This document shows positions 21,913 to 45,434 of a stretch of 47,725 bases of DNA, in pieces (within the stretch, counting starts at the first letter, position 1; the number at the start of each line of letters is the position of its first letter). A program made the position numbers and the translations under genes. The stretch is from Comamonadaceae bacterium (lineage in GTDB: Bacteria > Pseudomonadota > Gammaproteobacteria > Burkholderiales > Burkholderiaceae_C). Below the pieces are notes generated by a model. It ran no database searches and was not told the DNA's origin. It worked only from the letters and a program-made list of their open reading frames with translations. Location: assembly GCA_014190675.1 (NCBI GenBank), contig BJGT01000012.1, positions 1-47,725 on the forward strand, written 5' to 3'.

Positions 21913-22881
21913 TCAGGATTCCTTGCCGTAAGGCCGACCCAAGGCCTGCGGTGCCACCGCCGATCCGATAAAGCCAGCCAGCAAAACAACCGTCAGCACA
22001 TAGGGCAGGGCCTGGATCAACTGGACCGGCACCTCGCCCAGCCCGGCAATGCTGACCCCCTGTAAACGGATGGCGACCGAATCCAGGAAACCGAACAACA
22101 GGCAGGCCCAGAGCGCCTTGACCGGGTGCCAACGACCAAAAATCAGGGCTGCCAGCGCCATGAAGCCCCGCCCGGCGGTCATGTTCTGGGAAAAAGAGGC
22201 GCTCTGGGCCAACACCAGGTAGCTGCCAGCCAGGCCGCACAAAATACCATTCATGGTCAGGGCTGCGTAGCGCAAACCGCTCACCGATACCCCGGCCGCG
22301 TCGACCATTTGCGGGTTTTCTCCGACCGCCCGCAGGCGCAACCCAAAGCGGGTGCGAAACAACAGCCACCATACCGCGGGCACCATCGCAAAGGCCAAAT
22401 ACACCAAGGCGTCATGGCCAAGCAGGCCGGGGCCAAGCACAGGGCCGATGATGGCGATGCCCTGTACCCAATCAGCCAGGTCTGGCATCAGCGGGCTGAT
22501 GCGCACCGCAGCACTCACCGCCGGCGTTTGCCCGCCCTGGGCAAACCAGGCCATGCCCAGCACCACGGTCAAGCCCGCCGCAATGATGTTGGTTGCCACC
22601 CCCGAGACCACCTGATCGCCGCGGTAGCTGACACAGGCCAGCCCGTGCAGCCATGACAGCCCGGTAGCGACGCCAATGGCCAGCGCAACAGCCACGGCAG
22701 TGGATCCGTAAACCGCACCCGCAGCGCCAGACGCAAAGGCGGCAAACAGCATTTTTCCCTCCAGGCCAAGATCGATCACGCCCGAGCGTTCGGCCAGCAG
22801 GCCGGCCAGGGCACAAAGAATCAGGGGCGTGGCCATCCGCAAGGTCGAGGCCAGCAGCGCACCCCACAGCGCCTCATCCAT
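21913..22881 (-). CDS. Nucleoside-type ABC transporter permease (second permease)
   Basis: This multi-span permease has about 322 residues. LLAERSGVIDLGLEGKMLFAAF is characteristic of the permeases that work with BMP-family binding proteins in nucleoside uptake (NupQ/YufQ group). The ATG at 22881 (MDEALWGALL) is chosen because it starts the hydrophobic homologous part; the longer frame to 22965 adds an Arg-rich stretch that is only the shadow of the upstream gene. It overlaps the upstream permease by eight bases. It is the last gene of the transporter operon; the paa promoter lies at its end. Confidence 0.9.
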   Translation of the reverse strand: MDEALWGALLASTLRMATPLILCALAGLLAERSGVIDLGLEGKMLFAAFASGAAGAVYGSTAVAVALAIGVATGLSWLHGLACVSYRGDQVVSGVATNIIAAGLTVVLGMAWFAQGGQTPAVSAAVRISPLMPDLADWVQGIAIIGPVLGPGLLGHDALVYLAFAMVPAVWWLLFRTRFGLRLRAVGENPQMVDAAGVSVSGLRYAALTMNGILCGLAGSYLVLAQSASFSQNMTAGRGFMALAALIFGRWHPVKALWACLLFGFLDSVAIRLQGVSIAGLGEVPVQLIQALPYVLTVVLLAGFIGSAVAPQALGRPYGKES

Positions 22882-24019
22882 GCTCGCCCCCCGCCGCCGG
22901 AGCAGCCTGCCGGCGCCGCCCCATCGCCGCCAGCCGGGCCAGCAACCAGGCCAAGGCCGGCGCAATCACATACACCATCGCGCCGGAGAACAACACAATG
23001 AAACCCTGCAGCATCACCACCATGTTGCGGCTGAAACCCCGCACTTCAAAAGCCACCTCCGCACCGCCTTGAAACAGCGCGCCAAACAAGACACTGGCAA
23101 ACACGATGCCCAGCGGATGGTTGCGCCCCATCAGTGCCACTGCAATACCCGTAAAGCCCGCACCGCTGACAAACTCGAGCAACAGCCGCCCGCTCACACC
23201 AGCAATTTCATTCATACCGACCAGGCCGGCCAATGCCCCGGAGATGGCCATCGCCAACATCACCTGGCGCTGCGGGCCAATGCCTGCATAGCGGGCCGCC
23301 GCCGGGCTGGCACCCACCACCCGCAGGTGGTAACCCGACCGGGTATGCCAAAGAAACAGGTACACCAGCCAGCAGGCCAGCAGCGCGAGCAGCAGGCTTA
23401 GGTTCAAGGGGGAGGTCGGCCAGTCCAGGCCTAGCCAGCCCAGGGCGTCTCGCATGCTCGGCAGGCGCGCCGATTCGGCAAAGGCCCGGCTCTCCACCGC
23501 CATGGTGCCCGCCGGCCGCAACTGATGAACCAGCAGGTAAACCAGCAGGCTACTGGCTATGAAATTGAACATGATGGTGGTGATCACCACATGGCTGCCG
23601 CGGTAGGCCTGCAAGTAGGCCGGAATGGCGGCCCAGGCCATGCCAAACAGGGCACCCGCGAGCAGCATGATGGGCAGCATCAGCCAAGCCGGCAGGCTTG
23701 GCGACAGCCACAGTGCCACCAAGCCGGTGCCAAGACCGCCCAAAATCGCCTGACCTTCGCCGCCGATGTTGAATAAGCCGCCATGAAAAGCGACCGACAC
23801 AGCCAAGCCCGTGAAGATAAAGGTGGTGGCGTAATACAGCGTGTAACTGATGCCGCGCGGCGAGCCCAGGGCACCACTGACCAACACCAGCATCACCTCG
23901 ATCGGGTCTTGCCCAACCAACGCCACCACAGTACCGGCGGCGGCCAAGGCGACGGCCAAGCAGACCGCGGGCAGCAGCAGCAGATCAGCCCAGCGCGGCA
24001 GACCGTGGGTCGGGCTCAT
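22874..24019 (-). CDS. Nucleoside-type ABC transporter permease (first permease)
   Basis: This hydrophobic permease has 381 residues. FHGGLFNIGGEGQAILGGL and GYHLRVVGASPAAARYAGI are hallmarks of the BMP-associated permeases (NupP/YufP group). It overlaps the ATPase stop by four bases (ATGA) and the second permease start by eight bases, so the transporter genes are translationally coupled. With the second permease it forms the membrane channel for nucleosides or related purines; the exact cargo is inferred from the divergent nucleoside hydrolase and ribokinase genes. Confidence 0.9.
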   Translation of the reverse strand: MSPTHGLPRWADLLLLPAVCLAVALAAAGTVVALVGQDPIEVMLVLVSGALGSPRGISYTLYYATTFIFTGLAVSVAFHGGLFNIGGEGQAILGGLGTGLVALWLSPSLPAWLMLPIMLLAGALFGMAWAAIPAYLQAYRGSHVVITTIMFNFIASSLLVYLLVHQLRPAGTMAVESRAFAESARLPSMRDALGWLGLDWPTSPLNLSLLLALLACWLVYLFLWHTRSGYHLRVVGASPAAARYAGIGPQRQVMLAMAISGALAGLVGMNEIAGVSGRLLLEFVSGAGFTGIAVALMGRNHPLGIVFASVLFGALFQGGAEVAFEVRGFSRNMVVMLQGFIVLFSGAMVYVIAPALAWLLARLAAMGRRRQAAPAAGGEHG

Positions 24020-25545
24020 GCGCCGTCTCCAGTCATCAGCAGGCCCAGACCGGCTTCGGTGCAGTCGCCAATCGGCAATTCGCCGGCGATACGTCCCTGG
24101 TTCATGACAATCACCCGGTCTGAGAGGGCCAGGATTTCATCTAGCTCGCTTGACACCACCAGCACCGCGCAGCCGGCATCGCGCAAGGCCCGCAGGTGTG
24201 TGTAGATGAACTCGATGGCGCCAATGTCCACGCCGCGAGTCGGCTGGCCGACCAACAGCACCCGCGGGGCTTGGCCAAGTTCGCGCGCGAGCACCAGCTT
24301 TTGCTGATTACCGCCAGAAAACTTGCGGCTGCCCAACTCGGTGTTGGCTGGCCGGACATCAAAGCGCTGCATCATCGCCAGCGTGGCAGCGCGCATGCGG
24401 CCGTGGCGCAGCCAGCCCAGGTGGTTGTAGGCGGGCAGGCCGTCATAACCCAGTACCGCTGACTCCCAAGCCACAAAGGCCATGACCAGGGCCCGCGCCT
24501 GGCGATCTTCCGGCACATGGGCCAAGCCCAGCTGGCGGGCGAGGTGTGGCTGCAACCAGGCCGTGGACGTGAAGCTCTGGCCGCACAGCAGCAGTTGCCC
24601 GCTGTCCGGCACGCTCAGACCGCACAGCACATCGAGCAATTGACTCTGCCCGTTGCCCGAAACACCGGCCACGCCGACGATTTCTCCGGCATGCAGACTC
24701 AGGTTCAGTCCGGCCAACCGCTGCACGCCCAGGTCGTCGCGCAAGCCAATGTCGGAGGCGACCAGCAATGCCTGCGAAGCCGCCGGCCGAGCGGCATTCT
24801 CAAGCCGGCCCATTTGCACCTTGCGCCCGACCATGGCCAGGGCCAGGCCTTCGATGCTGGCCTGTGCCACCGGCGTGTCTAGCACCACCCGGCCAGCGCG
24901 CATCACGGTGACCTCGTCGCACAGGCGCATGACCTCCTTGAGTTTGTGTGTGATCAGCACAATCGTGCTGCCCTGTTCGCGCAGTGCGCGCAACACCGCA
25001 AACAATTGCTCGGCCTCTTGCGGCGTGAGCACCGCTGTGGGCTCATCGAGGATCAGGATGCGTGCGCCGCGGTACAGGGCTTTGAGAATCTCCAGGCGCT
25101 GACGGTCACCAACGGACAAATCCTGCACCAGCGCATCGAGCTTGACCCGCAGGCCGGTGGCCTGCATGAGGGGCTCGAGTTCCTGCTGCACCTGTCGCTG
25201 GGCCCGCGCCAGCTGCCAGTGCGGCTCAGCGCCCAGCAGCACATTGTCCAGGGCACTGAGCGTGTCAACCAGCATGAAGTGCTGGTGCACCATGCCAATG
25301 CCCAGGGCAATCGCGTCATCGGCATGGCGGATGGTGGCAGCTTGGCCGAACACTGCAATCTGGCCGCTGTCGGCCGCATAAAAGCCGTACAACACCGACA
25401 TCAGTGTGCTTTTACCGGCACCGTTTTCTCCCACAATGCCGTGCACCGTACCCCGGCGCACCGACAGGTTGACCCGGTCGTTGGCCTGCACAGCGCCGAA
25501 GCGCTTGCTGATGCCTGTCATGCACACCGCGAGATCAGGCTGCAT
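24016..25545 (-). CDS. Nucleoside-type ABC transporter ATPase with two nucleotide-binding domains
   Basis: This double ATPase has 509 residues. The first domain has Walker A GENGAGKSTLM, signature LSVGDRQRLEILKAL and Walker B ILILDEPTAVL. The second domain has the divergent loop GVSGNGQSQLL in place of a canonical Walker A, and signature FSGGNQQKLVLAREL, as is normal for RbsA/NupO-like proteins. It follows the binding-protein gene after 55 bases that can fold into hairpins, and its stop overlaps the first permease. Confidence 0.92.
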   Translation of the reverse strand: MQPDLAVCMTGISKRFGAVQANDRVNLSVRRGTVHGIVGENGAGKSTLMSVLYGFYAADSGQIAVFGQAATIRHADDAIALGIGMVHQHFMLVDTLSALDNVLLGAEPHWQLARAQRQVQQELEPLMQATGLRVKLDALVQDLSVGDRQRLEILKALYRGARILILDEPTAVLTPQEAEQLFAVLRALREQGSTIVLITHKLKEVMRLCDEVTVMRAGRVVLDTPVAQASIEGLALAMVGRKVQMGRLENAARPAASQALLVASDIGLRDDLGVQRLAGLNLSLHAGEIVGVAGVSGNGQSQLLDVLCGLSVPDSGQLLLCGQSFTSTAWLQPHLARQLGLAHVPEDRQARALVMAFVAWESAVLGYDGLPAYNHLGWLRHGRMRAATLAMMQRFDVRPANTELGSRKFSGGNQQKLVLARELGQAPRVLLVGQPTRGVDIGAIEFIYTHLRALRDAGCAVLVVSSELDEILALSDRVIVMNQGRIAGELPIGDCTEAGLGLLMTGDGA

Positions 25546-25600
25546 GGCTGCTCCGGGCAGGCCGCGGGGGCCAGCGCTCGCGCTCAGGCTCCCGGCAGCA
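25546..25600 (-). other. Intercistronic stem-loop region between the BMP binding protein and ATPase genes
   Basis: The outer arms GGCTGCTCCGGG (from 25546) and CCCGGCAGC (25591-25599) can pair with one bulge. Inside them AGCGC-TC-GCGCT (25573-25584) is a perfect inverted repeat. No U-run follows. As with the livK-livH gap, it may protect the upstream binding-protein mRNA and so give more binding protein than ATPase. The function is inferred. Confidence 0.45.
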
Positions 25601-26581
25601 TCAGTACTTGCAGGCGCTCGCTGTCATGTAGTCAACCACCTTGATCTTGCCGCTGAGGATGTCGGCCTTGGCTGCCTCAACTTTTTTACCCATATCAGCG
25701 CTCACCAGTTTTTCATTGTTTTTGTCCATGGCGTAGCCGACTCCCTCTTCTTTCAAGCCAAACACCGACAGGCCAGGCTTGTGCCCCTTGGCCACGTTGT
25801 ACACCGCCACATCCACCCGCTTGAGCATGGAGGTCAGCATGGTGCCGGGCTGGATATGGTTTTGGTTGCTGTCCACGCCGATGGCCAGTTTGCCGCCGTC
25901 CTTGGCAGCCTGGTACACACCAATGCCGGTGCCACCAGCGGCGGCAAACACCACATCGGCGCCCTTGGCAAACTGCGCCTTGGCCAGCTCACCACCGCGG
26001 GCGGGGTCGTTCCAGGCGGCGCCAGTGGTGCCGGTCATGTTGGCAAACACCTCGGCCTTGGGGTTGGCCCACTTGGCGCCCTGCTCGTAGCCGCACTGGA
26101 AGCGGCGGATCAGCGGGATGTCCATGCCACCCACAAAGCCGACCTTGCCAGTCTTGCTGGCCATGGCCGCCATGGCGCCGACCAGAAAACTGCCCTCATG
26201 CTCCTTGAACACCAAGGACTGAACATTGGGCAGCTTCACCTCGTCATCGATGATCGCGAAATTGAGTTTGGGGAATTCTTTGGCGATTTTTTCAACGCTC
26301 GAGGCCATGCTGAACGACATGGCGATGATCGGGCTGGCGCCCTTCTCGGCCATCCGGCGCAGGGCCTGCTCGCGCTGTGATTCGTTGGCAATTTCGAACT
26401 CAAGGTATTGCTTGCCGGTTTCTTTCTTCCACTTTTCCATGCCGTTGTAGGCCGCCTCATTGAACGATTTGTCGAATTTACCGCCCATATCAAACACGAT
26501 GGCCGGTTCGGCAGATACCGCGAAGCTGGTGGCCAAGGCTGCCGCCAAAACGCCCATACGGGCCGTGGTCTTGAATTTCAT
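25601..26581 (-). CDS. BMP-family nucleoside-binding periplasmic protein
   Basis: The protein has about 326 residues and an N-terminal Sec signal (MKFKTTARMGVLAAALATSF, cleavage near AVSA). The mature part contains FDMGGKFDKSFNEAAYNGM and GFVGGMDIPLIRRFQCGYEQ, typical of the BMP/PnrA/Med family that binds purine nucleosides. The start at 26581 begins the signal peptide; the longer frame upstream has no such character. It is the first gene of the leftward transporter operon, divergent from the ribokinase gene. Confidence 0.93.
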   Translation of the reverse strand: MKFKTTARMGVLAAALATSFAVSAEPAIVFDMGGKFDKSFNEAAYNGMEKWKKETGKQYLEFEIANESQREQALRRMAEKGASPIIAMSFSMASSVEKIAKEFPKLNFAIIDDEVKLPNVQSLVFKEHEGSFLVGAMAAMASKTGKVGFVGGMDIPLIRRFQCGYEQGAKWANPKAEVFANMTGTTGAAWNDPARGGELAKAQFAKGADVVFAAAGGTGIGVYQAAKDGGKLAIGVDSNQNHIQPGTMLTSMLKRVDVAVYNVAKGHKPGLSVFGLKEEGVGYAMDKNNEKLVSADMGKKVEAAKADILSGKIKVVDYMTASACKY

Positions 26582-26665
26582 GATCGCTCTTTCAGTGGTG
26601 GTTGGAGTGGACTTGTTTTCAGCAGTGCGGCTGCAATGACACCGGGCTTGGGTTAACACCCGCCA

Positions 26666-26733
26666 AGTTAAGCATAACAAACTTGCCCGTCAAGCGGGCC
26701 CTGATCAGGGTATTCATACAATGCGTTTTGACA
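26666..26733. promoter_or_regulatory. Divergent regulatory region of the nucleoside module
   Basis: Between the two operons lie a hairpin GCCCG-TCAAG-CGGGC (26685-26699) and, touching it, a perfect 12-bp palindrome CCCTGATCAGGG (26699-26710). Leftward, TTGACG (26693-26688) and TTAACT (26671-26666) are 16 bases apart, a weak sigma-70 candidate overlapping the hairpin. Rightward, a perfect TTGACA (26728-26733) exists but lacks a clear -10 at the right distance. The palindromes are reasonable operator candidates; no regulator gene is adjacent. Confidence 0.4.
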
Positions 26734-26797
26734 AACAGTCCTGCGGGTCTGCCCAATGCGGCAGCAGGCCAGGCCAGATGCATGCAAAGGTGATTCA

Positions 26798-27688
26798 ATG
26801 ATACTGGTGGCGGGTTCTGCCAACCTGGACTTCGTGGTCCGGGCGCCTCATATTCCCAGCCCCGGCGAGACGGTTCTGGGTGACGATTTCAAGACCTATC
26901 CCGGCGGCAAGGGTGCCAACCAGGCGGTCGCCTGTGCCCGTGCTGGCGGCGCCAAAACCCATCTGCTGGCGGCCTTGGGCGCAGACGCCTTCGCCGCGCC
27001 CATCGAGGCGTCCCTAGCCGACGCCGGGGTGGTGCTGCACGTGGTGCGGGCGGCCGAGCAGGCCACTGGCACAGCCTTCATCTGCGTCTCAGCCCAGGGG
27101 GAGAACGCCATCACTGTAGCCCCCGGCGCCAACCAAAGCTTGGCGCCTGCCCACCTGCCTGCGCTAGCCGGCTTCAGCCACCTGTTGCTGCAGCTCGAAA
27201 CTCCACTTGAAACCGTTGCCGCTTACGCCCGGGCCGCCCAGTCCCAGGGGCTTACCGTCGTGCTCAATGCAGCACCGGCGCAACACTTGTCGGCCGAGTT
27301 GCTGGCTGACGTGGATATCCTGATCGTCAACCAGGGTGAACTCGCCGCTCTGGCCGACGGCTGCGCCAGCCAAGACGAACAAATCTCACGCATAGCCGTT
27401 CCCTGCTTAATCGTCACCCTGGGCCAAGAGGGTTGCGTGGCGCGCAGCGGACAACACCGGTTTGTGCAGGCGGCCTTCCCGGTCAAAGTGCTTGACACCA
27501 CGGGTGCCGGAGACACTTTTTGTGGCACGTTGGTGGCCGCGCTGAGCCAGGGCGAGACCATGCCAGACGCCCTGCGCCGCGCCAGTGCTGCCGCCGCCCT
27601 GGCCTGCACCAGTTTGGGCGCACAGTCTTCCATACCCACCGCCCAAGCAGTTGCGGCCATGCTGGCCCAAGGTAAGAAAACCACATGA
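26798..27688 (+). CDS. rbsK: Ribokinase (PfkB family)
   Basis: This PfkB-family sugar kinase has about 296 residues. GSANLDFVVRAPHIPSPGET and YPGGKGANQAVACARAGG are the N-terminal ribokinase motifs; DTTGAGDTFCGTLVAAL is the C-terminal anion-hole and catalytic-Asp motif. It phosphorylates ribose, here probably the ribose freed by the next gene's nucleoside hydrolase. The ATG at 26798 has AAAGGTG seven bases upstream; the longer frame from 26756 is not supported. Its stop overlaps the nucleoside hydrolase start by ATGA. Confidence 0.92.
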   Translation: MILVAGSANLDFVVRAPHIPSPGETVLGDDFKTYPGGKGANQAVACARAGGAKTHLLAALGADAFAAPIEASLADAGVVLHVVRAAEQATGTAFICVSAQGENAITVAPGANQSLAPAHLPALAGFSHLLLQLETPLETVAAYARAAQSQGLTVVLNAAPAQHLSAELLADVDILIVNQGELAALADGCASQDEQISRIAVPCLIVTLGQEGCVARSGQHRFVQAAFPVKVLDTTGAGDTFCGTLVAALSQGETMPDALRRASAAAALACTSLGAQSSIPTAQAVAAMLAQGKKTT

Positions 27689-28680
27689 ACAGCAGCCAAG
27701 TACATCGGGTTATTTTCGATACCGACCCCGGCGTGGACGACGCCATGGCCCTGTATTTCGCACTCGCCCATCCGGCCATCGAGGTGCTTGGAATCACCAC
27801 CAGCTTTGGCAACGTGACCGTGGCGCAGGCCGCCCAAAATGCCCTCTACCTGTGTGCCTTGGCCGGGCGTCGCATTCCGGTCACACAGGGGGTGGACCGG
27901 CCCTGGCTGAAACCAGCTGAGGCGCCACCGGCCTACATTCATGGTGCCGACGGCCTGGGCAATTTACCCGATCGCATGGCGGTGTCTGAGCAACTCGACT
28001 TGCGCCCATCGGCCCAGTTCATCGTCGACATGGCGCGCGCCAACCCCGGCGAGATCACCCTGGTGGCTGTGGGTCCCCTGGGCAACCTCAGCCTGGCGCT
28101 GCTGCTCGAGCCTGCCTTACCCAGTTTGCTCAAACAGGTGATTCTGATGGGTGGCACGGTGCTCGAGCCAGGCAATGTCTCCCCCGTGGCCGAGGCCAAC
28201 ATCTGGAACGACCCGCACGCCGCCGACCGGGTGTTTACTGCCGGTTGGCCGCTCACCATGGTTGGACTGGATGTGACCCACCGCCTGGTTTTACCGGTTA
28301 CGCTGTTTCAAAAAATTGCCGACCACCATCGACACCGCGCCACCGACGCACTGCACCACGCGGTGTCTTTTTATGCTGATTTTTATGGCGCGCGCTTTGC
28401 GCATGTGGCTGCCGTTCGAGGCTGTTTTGGGCATGATGTGCTGGCCTTTATTTACCTGGTTGCGCCCTATCTGTTTGAGACGCAAAGCGGCCAGGTTCGT
28501 GTGGTGAGCGACGGCCTGGCCCAGGGGCAGACGATTCTCAAACGCCAGCCTGGCATCGACTACCCCCACCCCGGCTGGGATGCCAGCCGGCCCGCCAGCA
28601 GCGTGTGCATGGCGCTTGACGCCCCGGCCTGCAGCGCGCTCTTCGAGACCACGCTGATGCGCTCGTGGTTGCCAGCCTGA
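27685..28680 (+). CDS. Inosine/uridine-preferring nucleoside hydrolase
   Basis: The protein has 331 residues. The N-terminal Ca-binding motif DTDPGVDDAMAL (from about residue 12) is diagnostic of the family; MGGTVLEPGNVSPVAEANIW, and GLDVTHRLVLP also match. It splits ribonucleosides into base and ribose. Tight coupling with rbsK (ATGA overlap) and divergence from a BMP-type transporter define a nucleoside import and cleavage module. Which of the Rih-type specificities it has cannot be read from sequence. Confidence 0.93.
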   Translation: MNSSQVHRVIFDTDPGVDDAMALYFALAHPAIEVLGITTSFGNVTVAQAAQNALYLCALAGRRIPVTQGVDRPWLKPAEAPPAYIHGADGLGNLPDRMAVSEQLDLRPSAQFIVDMARANPGEITLVAVGPLGNLSLALLLEPALPSLLKQVILMGGTVLEPGNVSPVAEANIWNDPHAADRVFTAGWPLTMVGLDVTHRLVLPVTLFQKIADHHRHRATDALHHAVSFYADFYGARFAHVAAVRGCFGHDVLAFIYLVAPYLFETQSGQVRVVSDGLAQGQTILKRQPGIDYPHPGWDASRPASSVCMALDAPACSALFETTLMRSWLPA

Positions 28681-28714
28681 GCCTACCCGGCCCGCGCCTG
28701 TGTTCAGCCACGCC

Positions 28715-29560
28715 ATGCACTTGCCTGTGATCGATTTTCAAAACCAGGGGGCGCCTGAGGCGTTTTGCCGCAGCCTGCACAGCACCGGATTCGCGGTACT
28801 GACCAAGCACCCCCTGCAGCCGGACCTGGTGGCAGGCATTTATGCCGAGTGGCTGGATTTCTTTCAGGGCCAGGCTAAGCATGCCTATGCCCATGATGCG
28901 CTGCGGCACGATGGCTATTTCTCCACCGCGGTGTCGGAAACCGCCAAAAACCACACACAGCGCGATCTCAAAGAGTTCTTTCACATCTACCCTTGGGGGC
29001 GGTACCCGAGCGAAGTGTCCGACGCCGCGCGACGTTACTACGCCCAGGGCAATGCGCTGGCGCAAACCCTGCTGGGCTGGGTCCAAGCCCATTCACCGCC
29101 GGCAGTGCGGGCCGGCTACTCAATGCCTCTGCCTGCGATGCTCGATGGCAGCGAGCACACGCTGCTGCGGGTGCTGCACTACCCGCCACTGACTGGCCAT
29201 GAAAATCCCGGCGCCCTGCGCGCTGCCGCCCATGGCGACATCAACCTCTTGACGCTGCTGCCCGCGGCCACCGAACCCGGCCTTCAGGTACTGGCCCAAG
29301 ACGGCAGTTGGAAGGACGTGCCCTGCGACTTCAATTACCTGATTGTCAATATCGGCGACATGCTGGCCGAAGCCTCGGGCCACCACTACCCATCCACGGT
29401 ACACCGCGTGCTCAACCCGGTGGGTCTGGCGCGAACCAAGCCACGTATTTCTCTGCCACTGTTTCTGCACCCCCGGCGCGAGGTGGTGCTGTCGCAGCGC
29501 TACACCGTGGGCAGCTACTTTGATGAACGCATGCAGGAGTTGCGCAGGCCGGGCAGCTGA
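28715..29560 (+). CDS. Isopenicillin N synthase-like 2-oxoglutarate/Fe(II) oxygenase
   Basis: This double-stranded beta-helix oxygenase has about 281 residues. The iron ligands are visible as HGDINLLTLLP (HxD) and STVHRVLNP (distal His), with RISLPLFLHP supplying the RxS motif that binds the co-substrate. The N-terminal domain (LPVIDFQNQGAPEAFCRSLH) is of the DIOX_N type. It lies 34 bases after the nucleoside hydrolase. The ATG at 28715 is chosen over a GTG five codons upstream. The substrate is unknown; the neighbourhood suggests a nucleobase or nucleoside derivative. Confidence 0.85.
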   Translation: MHLPVIDFQNQGAPEAFCRSLHSTGFAVLTKHPLQPDLVAGIYAEWLDFFQGQAKHAYAHDALRHDGYFSTAVSETAKNHTQRDLKEFFHIYPWGRYPSEVSDAARRYYAQGNALAQTLLGWVQAHSPPAVRAGYSMPLPAMLDGSEHTLLRVLHYPPLTGHENPGALRAAAHGDINLLTLLPAATEPGLQVLAQDGSWKDVPCDFNYLIVNIGDMLAEASGHHYPSTVHRVLNPVGLARTKPRISLPLFLHPRREVVLSQRYTVGSYFDERMQELRRPGS

Positions 29561-39294: not shown

Positions 39295-40284
39295 ATGCGA
39301 CTTGTTTTTTCACTGCGATCCCCGCTTGGCACTTGGGCGCTGCTGGCACTGAGCGTTCTGTGCACGGGCACAGCCCTGGCCCAAACCATGTACCCCGACA
39401 AGCCACTGCGCTTTGTCGTGCCCTACCCGCCCGGTGGCGGTACGGATGTGATTGCGCGCATCGTGCAAGAGCGCTTTGGGGCGGCACTGGGCCAGGCCAT
39501 CATCATCGACAACAAGGGTGGCGCAGGAGGCTCGGTGGGCTCGGAGCTGGTGGCACGCGCCGCGCCCGATGGCTATACCGTTCTGTTCACGCTGAGCTCG
39601 CACACCATCAACCCAGCCATCTACCCCAAGCTCTCGTTTGACACCATCAAGGACTTTGAGGCGATTGGCACGGTGGCCTCGTTGCCGCAAATTCTGGTGG
39701 CCAACCCGCAGGTACCCGCCAACACCGTGGCCGAGCTGGTGGCACTGGCCAAGGCCAAGCCTGAGCTGCTGGCCTATGCGTCTGTGGGTAATGGATCCCC
39801 CGGGCACCTGGCCGGCGAGTTGTTCAAGCTGCGCACCGGCACCCAAATGACACACATACCCTACCGCGGCGGCGGACCGGCAGTGGTCGATGTCATCAGC
39901 GGACAGGTGCCGCTGCTGTGGGTATCGATCCCGGCCGCAGCCCAGTTCGTCAAAGCCGGTAAGTTGCGCGCGCTGGCAGTCTCCACACTGAAACGCAGTG
40001 CTGCTTTTCCGGATGTACCTACGGTACAAGAGAGCGGCGTGCCAGACTTTGAAGTGGATTCCTGGTACGCCATGTTTGTGCCTGCGCGCACGCCCCAGCC
40101 GGTGATCGAGCGGCTCAACCGCGCCCTCAACAGCGTGTTGGCCGATGCCACGATCCGCGAGAAACTGCTGGCCCAAGGCGCCGAGGGCGTGGGCGGCACG
40201 CCGCAGGCGCTGGCCCGCATCGTGGCGGCAGAGTTGCCAAAGTGGGCCAAGCTGGCCAAAGACGCCAACATCAAGGCCGATTGA
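39295..40284 (+). CDS. TctC/Bug-type periplasmic binding protein
   Basis: This secreted binding protein has 329 residues, with a signal peptide ending near ALAQ. YPDKPLRFVVPYPPGGGTDV is the hallmark of the tripartite tricarboxylate transporter (TctC/Bug) family, expanded in Burkholderiales. AGGAG lies seven or eight bases upstream of the ATG. No TctA or TctB membrane partner is adjacent. It ends one base before the aldehyde dehydrogenase start, so it probably binds the substrate of the downstream module, an organic anion such as sulfoacetate by inference. Confidence 0.9.
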   Translation: MRLVFSLRSPLGTWALLALSVLCTGTALAQTMYPDKPLRFVVPYPPGGGTDVIARIVQERFGAALGQAIIIDNKGGAGGSVGSELVARAAPDGYTVLFTLSSHTINPAIYPKLSFDTIKDFEAIGTVASLPQILVANPQVPANTVAELVALAKAKPELLAYASVGNGSPGHLAGELFKLRTGTQMTHIPYRGGGPAVVDVISGQVPLLWVSIPAAAQFVKAGKLRALAVSTLKRSAAFPDVPTVQESGVPDFEVDSWYAMFVPARTPQPVIERLNRALNSVLADATIREKLLAQGAEGVGGTPQALARIVAAELPKWAKLAKDANIKAD

Positions 40285-40285
40285 C

Positions 40286-41701
40286 ATGCGCCCAGCAGAC
40301 AGCCCACTGGATCAGCTGGTGGGCCAACTCGTCGCCCGCGCCCGCTTGGCACAGCAGGTGGCCAATGGCTATGACCAAAGCCGCGTGGACGAAGTGGTGG
40401 CGGCAGCCGGCTGGGCGATTCTTGAGCCGGGGCGAAACCAGCAGCTCGCTGAACTGGCTGTGGCCGACACCGGCATTGGCAATGTGGCTGACAAAGTGCG
40501 CAAAAACCACCGTAAAACGCTGGGTCTGCTGCGCGACTTGCAAGGCGCGCGCTCGGTGGGCGTGATTCACGAAGACAGAGCGCTGGGCCTGACCGAAATC
40601 GCGCGGCCGGTGGGGGTGGTTTGCGCTGTCACGCCGTCCACCAACCCGGCGGCTACACCGGCCAATAAAATCATCAACGCCCTCAAGGGCCGTAATGCGG
40701 TGATTCTGGCGCCCTCGCCCAAGGGCTGGAGCACGTCGGCGCGTTTGCTTGAATTCATCCATGCGCAGTTCGGTCGCATCGGTGCCCCACCCGACTTGGT
40801 GCAGCTGCTGCCTGACCCGATAAGCAAAGCCAGCACCCAGGCCCTGATGCAGCAATGCGATTTGGTGGTGGCCACCGGCTCACAAGCCAATGTGCGGGCC
40901 GCATATGCCAGCGGCACGCCAGCGTTTGGCGTGGGCGCGGGCAATGTGGCAGGCATCGTTGACGAAAGCGCAGACCTGCAGGCCGCCGCCGAGCGCGTGT
41001 TGCGCTCCAAGACCTTTGACAATGCCACCAGTTGTTCGTCTGAAAACAGCCTGGTGATCGTGGCTGCTGTGTATCCGGCGATGTTGCAAGCGCTGCGTGC
41101 TCAGGGCGCGGTATTGCTGAGTGCCACGCAAAAAGCTCGGCTCGAAGCCCTGATGTGGCCCCAGGGCAAGCTCTCGGCCGCCGTGATCGGGCAGTCCGCC
41201 GGGCTGATTGCCAGCCGTGCCGGCCTGGCCAGCCTGGCCGCGTTGTCACCAACCATGCTGCTGGTGGAGGAAGATGGCGTTGGCCAGGCGCATCCCTTTT
41301 CGGGCGAAAAATTGTGCCCGGTCCTCACGATGTACCAGGCGCAAAATTTTGATGCAGCCGCCGCCCTGGTTGCCCGCATTTACGCATTTGAAGGTGCCGG
41401 ACATTCGGTTGGGCTGCACAGCGCGAAGCCTGAGCGCGCCTTGCAACTTGGGCTGTCGCTGCCGGTGTCGCGCGTGATTGTGAACCAGGCCCACAGCATT
41501 GCCACCGGTGGCAGCTTTGACAATGGCTTGCCGTTTTCGCTGTCGATGGGCTGCGGCACCTGGGGCAAGAACAATTTCTCTGACAACATGAACTATCGGC
41601 ACTACCTCAACATCACCCGCATCGCGCAGCCCATCGCGGAACGTCTGCCCAGCGAACAGGCTATTTTTGGCAGGTTTTTCGACAAATTCGGCCGCGCATG
41701 A
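40286..41701 (+). CDS. CoA-acylating aldehyde dehydrogenase, SauS-like candidate
   Basis: The protein has 471 residues. The overall pattern (VGVVCAVTPSTNPAATPANK, GAGNVAGIVDESAD, and the catalytic Cys in FDNATSCSSENSLVIV) is that of acylating aldehyde dehydrogenases of the EutE/AdhE type, which interconvert an acyl-CoA and an aldehyde with NAD(P)H. Its coupling by ATGA to a CoA ligase and a following TauE/SafE exporter matches sulfoacetaldehyde dehydrogenase (acylating), SauS, of sulfoacetate catabolism. The start at 40286 follows the binding-protein stop by one base. Other short aldehydes remain possible substrates. Confidence 0.8.
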   Translation: MRPADSPLDQLVGQLVARARLAQQVANGYDQSRVDEVVAAAGWAILEPGRNQQLAELAVADTGIGNVADKVRKNHRKTLGLLRDLQGARSVGVIHEDRALGLTEIARPVGVVCAVTPSTNPAATPANKIINALKGRNAVILAPSPKGWSTSARLLEFIHAQFGRIGAPPDLVQLLPDPISKASTQALMQQCDLVVATGSQANVRAAYASGTPAFGVGAGNVAGIVDESADLQAAAERVLRSKTFDNATSCSSENSLVIVAAVYPAMLQALRAQGAVLLSATQKARLEALMWPQGKLSAAVIGQSAGLIASRAGLASLAALSPTMLLVEEDGVGQAHPFSGEKLCPVLTMYQAQNFDAAAALVARIYAFEGAGHSVGLHSAKPERALQLGLSLPVSRVIVNQAHSIATGGSFDNGLPFSLSMGCGTWGKNNFSDNMNYRHYLNITRIAQPIAERLPSEQAIFGRFFDKFGRA

Positions 41702-43206
41702 GCGCAGGCGTGCGCCAACTCATCGCGCAGCAGGCCAGTCTGCGCCCCGATGCGCTGTACGCGATGGACGGCGAGGGTCGCCAGCAGCTCAGCTTTGGGG
41801 CGCTGGCAGGCCGTAGCCGGCAGGTGGCGGCACTGCTGATGGCCCAGGGGACGATGCCTGGCGACACAGTATCGCTGGTCATGCCCAATGGGCTGGCCAC
41901 GCTGCAGTGGTTGTTGGGAGCGATGCAAGGCGGCTGGTGCGTCAACCCGGTCAACCTGCTCTCGCAGCCCGAGCAGATGCGCTACGTGCTCGAGCACAGC
42001 GACTGCAAACTGGTGATCGTCAGCCCAGATTGGGAAGAGCGGGTGCGTGCGCTTCTAAAGGGCACGGCAGGCTGCATCCGCCTGCTGGTCAGCGCGCCGG
42101 ATATCTACCACTGGCCCCCGGCTGAGGCCGAACCGCCGGCTCCGTTGCCCGAAGCATTGGCCCTGCTGATGTACACCTCGGGCACCACCGGGCAGCCCAA
42201 GGGGGTGATGCTGACCCAGGCCAACCTGGCTGCCAACGCAGCCGCCATCAGCACCGAGCATGCACTGCTGCCCGCCGACCGGGTGCTGGCGGTGCTGCCT
42301 CTGTACCACATCAACGCCTTTGCGGTGACCATGCTGGCGCCGTTGGCCCATGGCGGCAGCCTGGCCATGCCAAGCAAGTTTTCCGCCGCGCGCTTTTGGG
42401 AGCAGGCCAGCCACAGCGGCTGCACCTGGCTCAATGTGGTACCGACCATGATCTCTTACCTGCTCGAAGGCGCCGCACCAACCCCAGACCAAACCCGGGG
42501 CCTGCGTTTTTGCCGCTCGGCCTCGGCCGCGCTGCCGCCAGAACACCTGCGCGCCTTCGAGGCCCGCTTTGGCCTGGGCATCATCGAAACCATGGGTCTG
42601 ACCGAGACCGTGGCGCCCTCGTTTTCCAACCCGCTGGATCCCCAGCTGCGCAAACTGGGCGCGGTCGGGCGCGCCTCGGGTTGCGAGGCGCGGGTGGTTG
42701 ACGCCGCACTGGCCGAGCTGCCCGACGGCCAGACCGGCGAGATTGCCATTCGCGGCCCCAATGTGATGCACGGCTATTACAAAAACCCTGAGGCTACCGC
42801 AGCCGCCTTCACCCCGGACGGCTGGTTGCGCACGGGTGATCTGGGCCACCGCGACCCGGATGGCTTCTTCTTTGTGACCGGGCGTATCAAAGAGCTGATC
42901 ATCAAGGGCGGCGAGAACATTGCGCCGCGCGAGATAGACGAGGCGCTGCTTAAGCACCCCGCCGTGCTGGATGCTGCTGCGGTTGGCATCCCGGACCGGC
43001 ACTACGGCCAGGAGATCATGGCCTGTGTGGTGCTGCGGCCCGGCCACAGTGCCGATGAGGCGGCGCTGCACAGTTTTTGCCTGGCGCAGCTGGGCCGCTA
43101 CAAAACGCCCAAGCTGTTCCGGCTGGTGAGCGACCTGCCGCGCGGCCCGTCGGGCAAAGTGCAAAGGCTCAAGCTGGCCGAGTTATACGCGCCGGCGCCG
43201 GGCTGA
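41698..43206 (+). CDS. AMP-forming acyl-CoA ligase, SauT-like candidate
   Basis: This ANL-superfamily ligase has 502 residues. Motifs are the P-loop YTSGTTGQPKGVMLT, the adenylate-binding MGLTET, GRIKELIIKGGENIAPREID and the final catalytic Lys in PSGKVQRLK. It would activate a carboxylic acid to its CoA ester, which the preceding acylating dehydrogenase could reduce to the aldehyde. Together they match the sulfoacetate-CoA ligase and sulfoacetaldehyde dehydrogenase pair (SauT/SauS). Start and stop overlap: ATGA with the upstream gene. The substrate is inferred only from context. Confidence 0.85.
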   Translation: MSAGVRQLIAQQASLRPDALYAMDGEGRQQLSFGALAGRSRQVAALLMAQGTMPGDTVSLVMPNGLATLQWLLGAMQGGWCVNPVNLLSQPEQMRYVLEHSDCKLVIVSPDWEERVRALLKGTAGCIRLLVSAPDIYHWPPAEAEPPAPLPEALALLMYTSGTTGQPKGVMLTQANLAANAAAISTEHALLPADRVLAVLPLYHINAFAVTMLAPLAHGGSLAMPSKFSAARFWEQASHSGCTWLNVVPTMISYLLEGAAPTPDQTRGLRFCRSASAALPPEHLRAFEARFGLGIIETMGLTETVAPSFSNPLDPQLRKLGAVGRASGCEARVVDAALAELPDGQTGEIAIRGPNVMHGYYKNPEATAAAFTPDGWLRTGDLGHRDPDGFFFVTGRIKELIIKGGENIAPREIDEALLKHPAVLDAAAVGIPDRHYGQEIMACVVLRPGHSADEAALHSFCLAQLGRYKTPKLFRLVSDLPRGPSGKVQRLKLAELYAPAPG

Positions 43207-44139: not shown

Positions 44140-44366
44140 AGCGCGCAGCAGGGCAGTGCCGGGGTTTTGCTGACATGGTCTTTCTTTGCTGTGGGTGCGA
44201 CTGTCCACTGCAGTGCGCCATGGCTGCGCCACACGATCTGGATCATGGTCGGTGGCGCCGGGGCGCAAGGCGGTGTTTTTGGTAATCTACCAAGGTGTTC
44301 GGGTCAAGCCTGCCGTGCCGATACTCAACTCGGCTACCCAATTGCCACCCAAAAAGAGTAACAAAG

Positions 44367-45434
44367 ATGTTTTTACGCAATGCCTGGTATGTCGCCGCCT
44401 GGGACCGCGAACTGGGCCAGGTGCCGCTGGCGGTGCGTGTTCTGGGCGAAGACATCGTTCTGTATCGCCGCTCTGACGGCCGGGCTGTGGCGCTGGAAGA
44501 TGCCTGCCCCCACCGCAAACTCCCGCTTTCCCAGGGTCGCATCCAGGGCGACTTGCTGGAGTGTGGCTACCACGGCCTGCGCTTTGACTGCAGCGGGCGC
44601 TGCGTCAAGGTGCCAGGTACCCACAACATTCCTGCCGCTGCCCTGGTGCGGGCTTTTCCACTGGAAAACCGTTACGGTCTGCTGTGGATCTGGATGGGCG
44701 AGCCGGCCGGCGCAGCCAGGCAGGCCATTCACCAGATCCCGCACTGGGACGACCCCACCTGGGGCCGCAACCAGGGTGAGGCCATGACCATAGCCTGCAA
44801 TTACCTGCACATCACCGACAACTTGCTGGATCCCTCGCATGTCTCTTGGGTGCATCAAAGCTCTTTTGGCAATGCTGACTACCAAGAGACCGAGGTGGAC
44901 ACCTTGGTGGCCGAAAACGGGATCACCGTCTCACGCTGGATGCACGATCTTGCGCCCGCGCCGTTTTATGAACCCTTCTTGAAGTTCAAGGGCAACTGCG
45001 ACCGCAAGCAGCAGTACGAGGTGCGCTTTCCAAGCCATGCATTCATCCGGGCGATTTTTACCCCGCCAGGCAGCGGCGGGGACGGCCAAGCCCTGCACCA
45101 AGACGCTTTTATCATGGACAGCTACAACTTCATGACGCCCATCGACGCTGGCAACACCCGGTATTACTGGTTTCAATTGCGTAACTTCGCACCGGGCGAC
45201 GCGGAGGTATCGCGCCAGTTCACCGAATCGGTAGGCTTTGCGTTTGCCGAGGACAAAAAGATTTTGGAAGCGGTTCAAAAAGGCATAGACAAAGCGCGCG
45301 TTGCGCCCATCGGTCTCAAAATTGACCTTGGTCCCACCCGCTTTCGCCGCGCCTTGGCGCAGTTGATTGCCAACGAGCAGGCCGAGCTCGCTGCTGCAGC
45401 CCACAGTGGGAATACCTTTGGCCCGAAACCCTAG
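44367..45434 (+). CDS. Rieske oxygenase, VanA (aromatic O-demethylase)-like
   Basis: The protein has about 355 residues. MFLRNAWYVAAWDREL is the typical VanA-type start. The Rieske cluster ligands are CPHRKLPLSQG and CGYHGLRF. The mononuclear iron site is in NYLHITDNLLDPSHVSWVH. Such enzymes demethylate methoxylated aromatics like vanillate, or oxidise related rings, with electrons from a VanB-type reductase. No reductase gene is adjacent, so the partner must be encoded elsewhere. The ATG at 44367 is preceded by AAGAG, a moderate site. Its stop shares the sequence CTAG with the convergent nuclease gene stop. Confidence 0.88.
   Translation: MFLRNAWYVAAWDRELGQVPLAVRVLGEDIVLYRRSDGRAVALEDACPHRKLPLSQGRIQGDLLECGYHGLRFDCSGRCVKVPGTHNIPAAALVRAFPLENRYGLLWIWMGEPAGAARQAIHQIPHWDDPTWGRNQGEAMTIACNYLHITDNLLDPSHVSWVHQSSFGNADYQETEVDTLVAENGITVSRWMHDLAPAPFYEPFLKFKGNCDRKQQYEVRFPSHAFIRAIFTPPGSGGDGQALHQDAFIMDSYNFMTPIDAGNTRYYWFQLRNFAPGDAEVSRQFTESVGFAFAEDKKILEAVQKGIDKARVAPIGLKIDLGPTRFRRALAQLIANEQAELAAAAHSGNTFGPKP

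Follow-up and report, generated by a model that had tools for sequence, protein, structure and literature searches.

An isopenicillin N synthase-like Fe(II)/2-oxoglutarate oxygenase associated with nucleoside salvage genes: a possible step in the reuse of non-canonical nucleosides

Introduction

A gene for an Fe(II)/2-oxoglutarate (2OG) oxygenase of the isopenicillin N synthase (IPNS)-like group closes an operon of a ribokinase-like kinase and a nucleoside hydrolase in a Comamonadaceae bacterium (assembly GCA_014190675.1, contig BJGT01000012.1), and its orthologues recur beside unlike sets of nucleoside genes and in genomes which possess uridine kinase (Udk). The window, that is, the whole stretch of DNA which was analysed, is 47,725 nucleotides long and constitutes one entire contig (G000:C12) of this genome (G000), whose nearest named relatives in a species-level scan are Rhodoferax and other Comamonadaceae metagenome-assembled genomes (MAGs). 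The fold, the ligands, the operon linkage and the genome co-occurrence are observed, and the case for a link between the family and nucleosides is good. With a probability of about 0.5, the oxygenase turns a non-canonical free nucleoside into a canonical ribonucleoside for nucleoside hydrolase (NH) or Udk; we infer both the reaction and its direction. The BMP-type importer of the operon would bring nucleosides into the cell, and the oxygenase would normalise odd nucleosides, imported or internally released, while converting 2OG to succinate and CO2. NH would release the base and ribose from the resulting ribonucleoside, and the PfkB-family kinase would phosphorylate the ribose; in other lineages uridine kinase would consume the oxygenase product instead. 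In the literature search, in which preprints were outside the scope, subscription papers were few and most items were judged from listings, no description of this oxygenase together with nucleoside genes was found.

Gene neighbourhoods of orthologues

A scan with one genome per species gave at least 531 related stretches, distant ones included, and the best 80 loci were analysed. The complete set of 136 oxygenase copies in 135 loci is biased, as 80 of the 135 loci are the top hits of a profile built from close relatives of the window; neighbours were named with a custom open reading frame (ORF) caller and BLAST labels. NH adjoins 47 of the 136 copies, on the same strand in 47/47 and upstream in 46/47, and because of this regularity the linkage is not due to chance. 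Among the best 80 loci NH lies next to the oxygenase in 44, which belong mostly to Comamonadaceae, Oxalobacteraceae and unclassified betaproteobacteria, together with Kaistia.

The nucleoside arrangements are diverse. The order in Comamonadaceae is a BMP operon divergent from kinase, NH and oxygenase (BMP|RK-NH-OXY, RK being the ribokinase-like kinase), and that in Undibacterium is RK-BMP-ABC-perm-perm-NH-OXY on one strand (ABC, ATP-binding cassette; perm, permease); 7 loci of the Undibacterium group also have a cytidine deaminase-like gene downstream. A diverged BMP operon with 30-49% identity is found in L061 (L and G numbers denote loci and genomes), BMP-ABC-perm-perm-OXY in L128, RK-NH-OXY-BMP-ABC-perm with a cytidine deaminase-like gene in L199 (G612, from outside the class), and Udk-NupC-OXY in six loci. 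Kaistia (L089) has NH, an energy-coupling factor (ECF) S component, the oxygenase and NH in this order; an 8-oxoguanine deaminase gene (L089:3825-5165; NF006055, above cut-off) lies upstream of that set. NCBIfam cut-offs are exceeded by Udk and NupC (L189 copies) and by Cdd (L063 copy). In addition, a PsuG-family cluster occurs in 12 related loci, 7 of which have it at a distance of no more than 8 genes and 8 kb; the L028 copy is a PF04227 member, and the kinase beside the PsuG-like gene in L022 scores highest as pseudouridine kinase, under the cut-off. L047 carries 5'-nucleotidase, S1/P1 nuclease and adenosine deaminase-like genes (the last by its BLAST label, the Pfam run having been made on the L048 copy).

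In the other 36 of the 80 loci the oxygenase has different neighbours, chiefly sucAB/zapE-like genes (15 loci, Roseateles and its relatives) and cysE-like ones (10 loci, Aquitalea/Chromobacterium), all names assigned by eye. The tRNA-dihydrouridine synthase gene dusA is directly next to the oxygenase gene, on the same strand and with gaps of -16 to 43 bases, in L139, L140, L141, L142 and L146 (DusA of L139 was confirmed by NCBIfam), and is nearby in L137 and L138. As separate observations, the oxygenase gene is directly downstream of purM-purN-like genes in L131 and L132 (PurN confirmed in L131), is present as a tandem pair in L138 (5138-6882), and lies within an 897-aa open frame, perhaps no more than a stretch free of stops, in L004 (G028:C526:6666-7508).

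Two draws reach beyond these close relatives. The class-wide draw matched in 50/369 genomes at E <= 1e-25, from which 33 loci with 34 copies were taken; here NH adjoins one copy, NupC adjoins one, BMP is near one, and DusA is near the oxygenase in 7/33 loci. The phylum-wide draw matched in 31/398 genomes at E <= 1e-60, and its 20 loci include Udk-NupC-OXY in five and RK-NH-OXY-BMP-ABC-perm in one (L199). At least 10 matching loci of the two samples were left out of the wide-flank set. In a tree of 84 of the 135 copies, those of usable length after removal of near-copies at 85%, the nucleoside-linked copies stand on several separated branches; the tree was made by a quick method and has several long branches, an unsure placement of L199 and 32 of 82 inner branches open.

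Co-occurrence with uridine kinase and nucleoside hydrolase

Oxygenase-positive (OXY+) genomes were 35 of the 39 class-sample genomes with a match at E <= 1e-60, G105, G151 and G248 (split or partial genes) and G367 (58% complete) being excluded. The 40 oxygenase-negative (OXY-) genomes were taken by serial number from G061 to G112, skipping G064, G067, the weak-match G071, G076 and G090, G105 and the positive ones; class-sample genomes whose match was weaker (E 1e-25 to 1e-60) belong to neither group, and G018, G035 and G612 were searched and excluded from the counts.

Udk (TIGR00235, E <= 1e-30) is present in 27/35 OXY+ versus 3/40 OXY- genomes (Fisher 4e-10), and at the curated cut-off, below which four of the 27 fall, in 23/35 versus 3/40 (1e-7). 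Counted by family, it is present in 18/21 of the OXY+ versus 3/40 OXY- (15/21 if all members must have Udk). If the product is a ribonucleoside, either consumer would be required, so that Udk and NH are expected to be complementary: Udk or NH is found in 33/35 OXY+ genomes (32/35 at the curated cut-off), and genomes without Udk have NH more often than those with it (6/8 versus 6/27, p 0.011; at the cut-off 9/12 versus 3/23, p 0.0005). The initial annotation had suggested hydroxylation of a nucleobase or nucleoside released in the pathway. The association with nucleosides was borne out by the unlike gene arrangements and the co-occurrence. The NH-released base as common denominator was not, because any NH is found (E 1e-10) in only 17/45 and 14/26 of the oxygenase genomes searched. 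Udk and NH both consume ribonucleosides, which favours action on a nucleoside, and hydroxylation of a nucleobase is less likely.

It had also been proposed to look for xanthine dehydrogenase near orthologues. The window's genome has six MoCoBD_1 genes, none on the window contig, and these seeds, which come from one genome so that a distant xanthine dehydrogenase could escape them, match no examined locus.

The locus and its gene calls

The genes of the locus are as follows (window coordinates, strand, description).

21913-22965, minus: ABC permease 1 (BPD_transp_2) of the BMP-type importer; Pfam PF02653, E 8.7e-36; the real start may be internal
22874-24019, minus: ABC permease 2 (BPD_transp_2); Pfam PF02653, E 3.4e-35
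24016-25545, minus: ABC ATPase with two ABC domains; Pfam PF00005 in 2 stretches, E 7.3e-47
25601-26581, minus: BMP/PnrA-like substrate-binding protein; PF02608, E 1.4e-57; likely start ATG 26581, ORF call TTG 26680
26582-26797, no strand: divergent intergenic region with a palindrome and a stem-loop read from the DNA
26798-27688, plus: PfkB-family, ribokinase-like kinase; PF00294, E 3.5e-56; likely start ATG 26798
27685-28680, plus: NH; PF01156, E 5.3e-85
28715-29560, plus: Fe(II)/2OG oxygenase of the SO_2589/3ON7 family; PF03171, E 6.6e-16, and PF14226, E 1.6e-8; likely start ATG 28715, not GTG 28700 of the ORF call

All the genes which the initial annotation had named, a BMP-type ABC operon divergent from ribokinase, NH and an IPNS-like oxygenase, are real and have their Pfam matches. 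The ABC operon extends beyond the region described there, to 21913-26581 on the minus strand, and the start codons of the BMP protein, kinase and oxygenase genes were corrected by aligning homologues and reading the DNA. The three plus-strand genes follow one another as closely as in an operon, with a 4-base overlap of kinase and NH and with 34 bases from the NH stop to ATG 28715. "Ribokinase" is a fair name for a PfkB Pfam member, although the score against the equivalog TIGR02152 (264.2 bits) is under the cut-off of 299.65. NH belongs to the inosine-uridine preferring family (PF01156, 286.1 bits, cut-off 34.2) and is under the NCBIfam equivalog cut-offs of RihC (188.3/382), RihA (153.9/433) and UriH (170.7/450); its best solved relatives are 6zk1 (annotated RihA) and 4kpn (Nucleoside N-ribohydrolase 1). 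In the divergent region, the 12-bp palindrome CCCTGATCAGGG at 26699-26710 is a possible operator. The stem-loop at 26685-26699 is a terminator-like match, the number of such matches is not above the shuffled expectation, and a promoter scan gave no sigma-70-like site.

Elsewhere in the window, a Rieske/VanA_C oxygenase has genes for an AMP-binding enzyme and an aldehyde dehydrogenase-like protein in its vicinity (44295-45431 and 40145-43203), and the set perhaps serves aromatic degradation.

The oxygenase protein and its solved relatives

The oxygenase has the two domains of the IPNS-like group, DIOX_N and 2OG-FeII_Oxy (PF14226, 35.7 bits, cut-off 27.3; PF03171, 58.9 bits, cut-off 23), with the HxD...H triad and the RxS 2OG motif. 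It is the sole PF03171 match in the window's genome at E 0.001, and no NCBIfam model matches it at the same threshold. The statement that it keeps its iron and co-substrate ligands proved correct for every one of them: by alignment with the thymine-7-hydroxylase (T7H) of Neurospora crassa (5C3P-S), H178, D180 and H235 would bind iron, and R157, Y161, R249 and S251 would contact 2OG. These residues and F255 are invariant in 48/48 orthologues, and in a wider alignment of 85 rows all of them are invariant except S251, which is kept in 81/85. Apart from this residue, the ligands are alike in nucleoside-linked, DusA-linked and other copies.

The best solved relatives by sequence are 3ON7 (SO_2589 of Shewanella oneidensis; phmmer E 4.9e-102), then 3OOX and T7H. 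SO_2589 is an ortholog with 51-53% identity and the same fold over the whole length, and no tested feature sets the window protein apart from it. An AlphaFold2 model from 48 sequences (mean pLDDT 90.8) superposes on 3ON7 with Z 35.9 and a root-mean-square deviation of 2.1 over 270 residues. That structure was released in 2010, and a 2023 review (PMC10467617) still lists it without a defined function. Second by VIA comes 3OOX (CC_0200 of Caulobacter, Z 29.4), which has 30% identity and possesses the HGDIN and FLH motifs as well as H95, followed by T7H (Z 29.2), rice GA2ox3 (28.9) and SpoC (28.7); because the latter two and many further 2OG oxygenases reach Z 26-29, T7H is not set apart structurally. 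IPNS, which cyclises the tripeptide aminoadipyl-cysteinyl-valine without 2OG, ranks below T7H in Foldseek.

T7H has in common with the window protein the fold, the Fe triad and the equivalents of R190, Y194, R286, S288 and F292 (R190 and F292 are R157 and F255, kept in 85/85 rows), for which the structural paper gives the roles of 2OG ligands, substrate contacts and, for F292, stacking (PMC4787775). Four of the six T7H substrate contacts differ: N87, E122, Y217 and N294 align with H70, H95, I181 and H257, of which I181 and H257 are each kept in 83/85 rows, and the H70 position is Q in 52/85 copies. The window protein is a 2OG oxygenase which, by its substrate contacts, is predicted not to be a T7H. 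H95 is kept in 32/32 nucleoside-linked and 41/45 other copies and in 4/8 DusA-linked ones, the substitutions being Q or N in 4/8 and 4/45. Residues separating the nucleoside-linked from the other copies were sought; the top positions, V106, L238 and A109, are not ligand positions, and H95 and H70 vary between the groups. The family is taken here as one substrate class, from which the DusA-linked copies may differ.

An optional member of the module

Sixty relatives, the window's genome included, were searched for the NH orthologue (at least 59% identity) and for the oxygenase (E 1e-20). The NH orthologue is found in 24 genomes of the same genus, of which 6 possess the oxygenase and 18 lack it, several of the latter being incomplete MAGs. 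Of the 17 OXY- loci which were labelled, 15 show the next gene downstream of NH, which is never the oxygenase, and in L240 and L246 the contig ends first. In L230, L232, L242 and L243, NH is followed by a 263-aa membrane protein and a reductase, a pair which also follows the oxygenase in several OXY+ loci. The oxygenase is thus optional, added to or lost from a module that also exists on its own, and therefore a peripheral funnelling step fits better than a central one.

Possible reactions

The data do not choose among 2'-O-methyl, dihydro and deoxy substrates; the DusA linkage would favour dihydrouridine and published analogy 2'-O-methyl nucleosides. Oxidative 2'-O-demethylation of 2'-O-methyl nucleosides, level with dihydrouridine conversion, is doubtful as the specific chemistry; if one choice were forced it would be named, because it has a published precedent on free nucleosides. 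2OG oxygenases of the PhyH family demethylate free 2'-O-methyl nucleosides, and there are very few data on the catabolism of such nucleosides (PMC12709175). These demethylases, FJS and PHYHD1, are also 2OG/Fe oxygenases acting on free nucleosides; they belong to PF05721, a family differing from that of the window oxygenase (PF03171 and PF14226, with no PF05721 match at E 0.001), and the likeness is a functional analogy. PhyH-family oxygenases have 14 matches in the window's genome. Of the same-genus genomes that possess the NH orthologue, 6/6 OXY+ and 0/18 OXY- ones contain them, a pattern that may reflect a difference between clades; replacement of the oxygenase by PhyH in OXY- relatives was not seen.

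Conversion of free dihydrouridine from tRNA turnover into uridine, by desaturation or by hydroxylation and dehydration, is just as doubtful. The five same-strand DusA adjacencies and the proximity in 7/33 class-sample loci speak for it, as does the PsuG-like cluster, which serves another tRNA nucleoside. DusA makes dihydrouridine within tRNA, however, so the link is indirect; moreover, by the tree the linkage may reflect one ancestral arrangement, and half of the DusA-linked copies have another residue in place of H95.

Equally improbable is a housekeeping or detoxifying role of a general kind, without relation to nucleosides, with the operons as lineage-specific coincidence. In the Vibrio, Roseateles and Chromobacterium loci the oxygenase is not among nucleoside genes, and its ligands for Fe and 2OG do not change with the context, which speaks for such a role; repeated, unlike nucleoside contexts on separated branches and the co-occurrence with Udk argue against it.

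NH and Udk need the 2'-OH. The oxygenase might thus 2'-hydroxylate deoxyribonucleosides for a ribose-specific NH, ribokinase or Udk, which is unlikely. The deoC gene is lacking in the NH-linked G000, G018, G133 and G612 and in the BMP-linked G364, and a nucleotide-substrate halogenase (7w5s) is a structural neighbour (Z 26.8), but 22/35 OXY+ genomes have deoC (3/40 OXY-) and would not need a bypass; the NH-linked G035 has it too. A simple deoC/deoA bypass is argued against by this positive correlation and by thymidine phosphorylase (PYNP_C), which is not enriched (4/35 versus 12/40, p 0.09).

Hydroxylation of an NH-released nucleobase, for example thymine as by fungal T7H, is similarly improbable: the T7H structure is one of the closest from a characterised enzyme (Foldseek E 4e-22; by VIA tied within 1 with GA2ox3 and SpoC), its R190 and F292 are retained, and Q at the H70 position could substitute for N87, but four of its contacts are replaced, NH is found in just 31 of the 71 oxygenase genomes searched, and the association is with Udk, a nucleoside kinase.

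Several observations weigh against the conversion of a non-canonical nucleoside for NH or Udk. Most class- and phylum-sample orthologues sit in other neighbourhoods, with NH, BMP or NupC near 3/33 and 6/20 loci, so that the finding which the initial annotation had named as contrary, orthologues mainly in unrelated contexts, was made in part. The DusA adjacency is explained neither by 2'-O-demethylation nor by 2'-hydroxylation, and the change of H95 in DusA-linked copies makes one family-wide substrate less certain. G225 and G302 have neither Udk nor NH, and at the cut-off G397 joins them. In addition, the co-occurrence may mark nucleoside users in general, given the enrichment of deoC; it is confounded by phylogeny, with non-independent families and chosen genomes, the NH counts cover OXY+ genomes only, and the Udk search scored 34 of a larger number of candidates in some genomes.

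Significance

The enzyme fold and class are known, and the role in a pathway would be new if shown. Context and co-occurrence point SO_2589/3ON7 to nucleosides and yield a short list of candidate substrates. Tentatively, with confidence short of even, an IPNS-fold 2OG oxygenase family of at least 531 related stretches may carry out a widespread bacterial salvage step, in which non-canonical free nucleosides (2'-O-methyl, dihydro or deoxy) from RNA or DNA breakdown would become canonical ribonucleosides, to be fed to NH or, in other lineages, to Udk. If this is true, a gap in the bacterial reuse of modified nucleosides would be filled.

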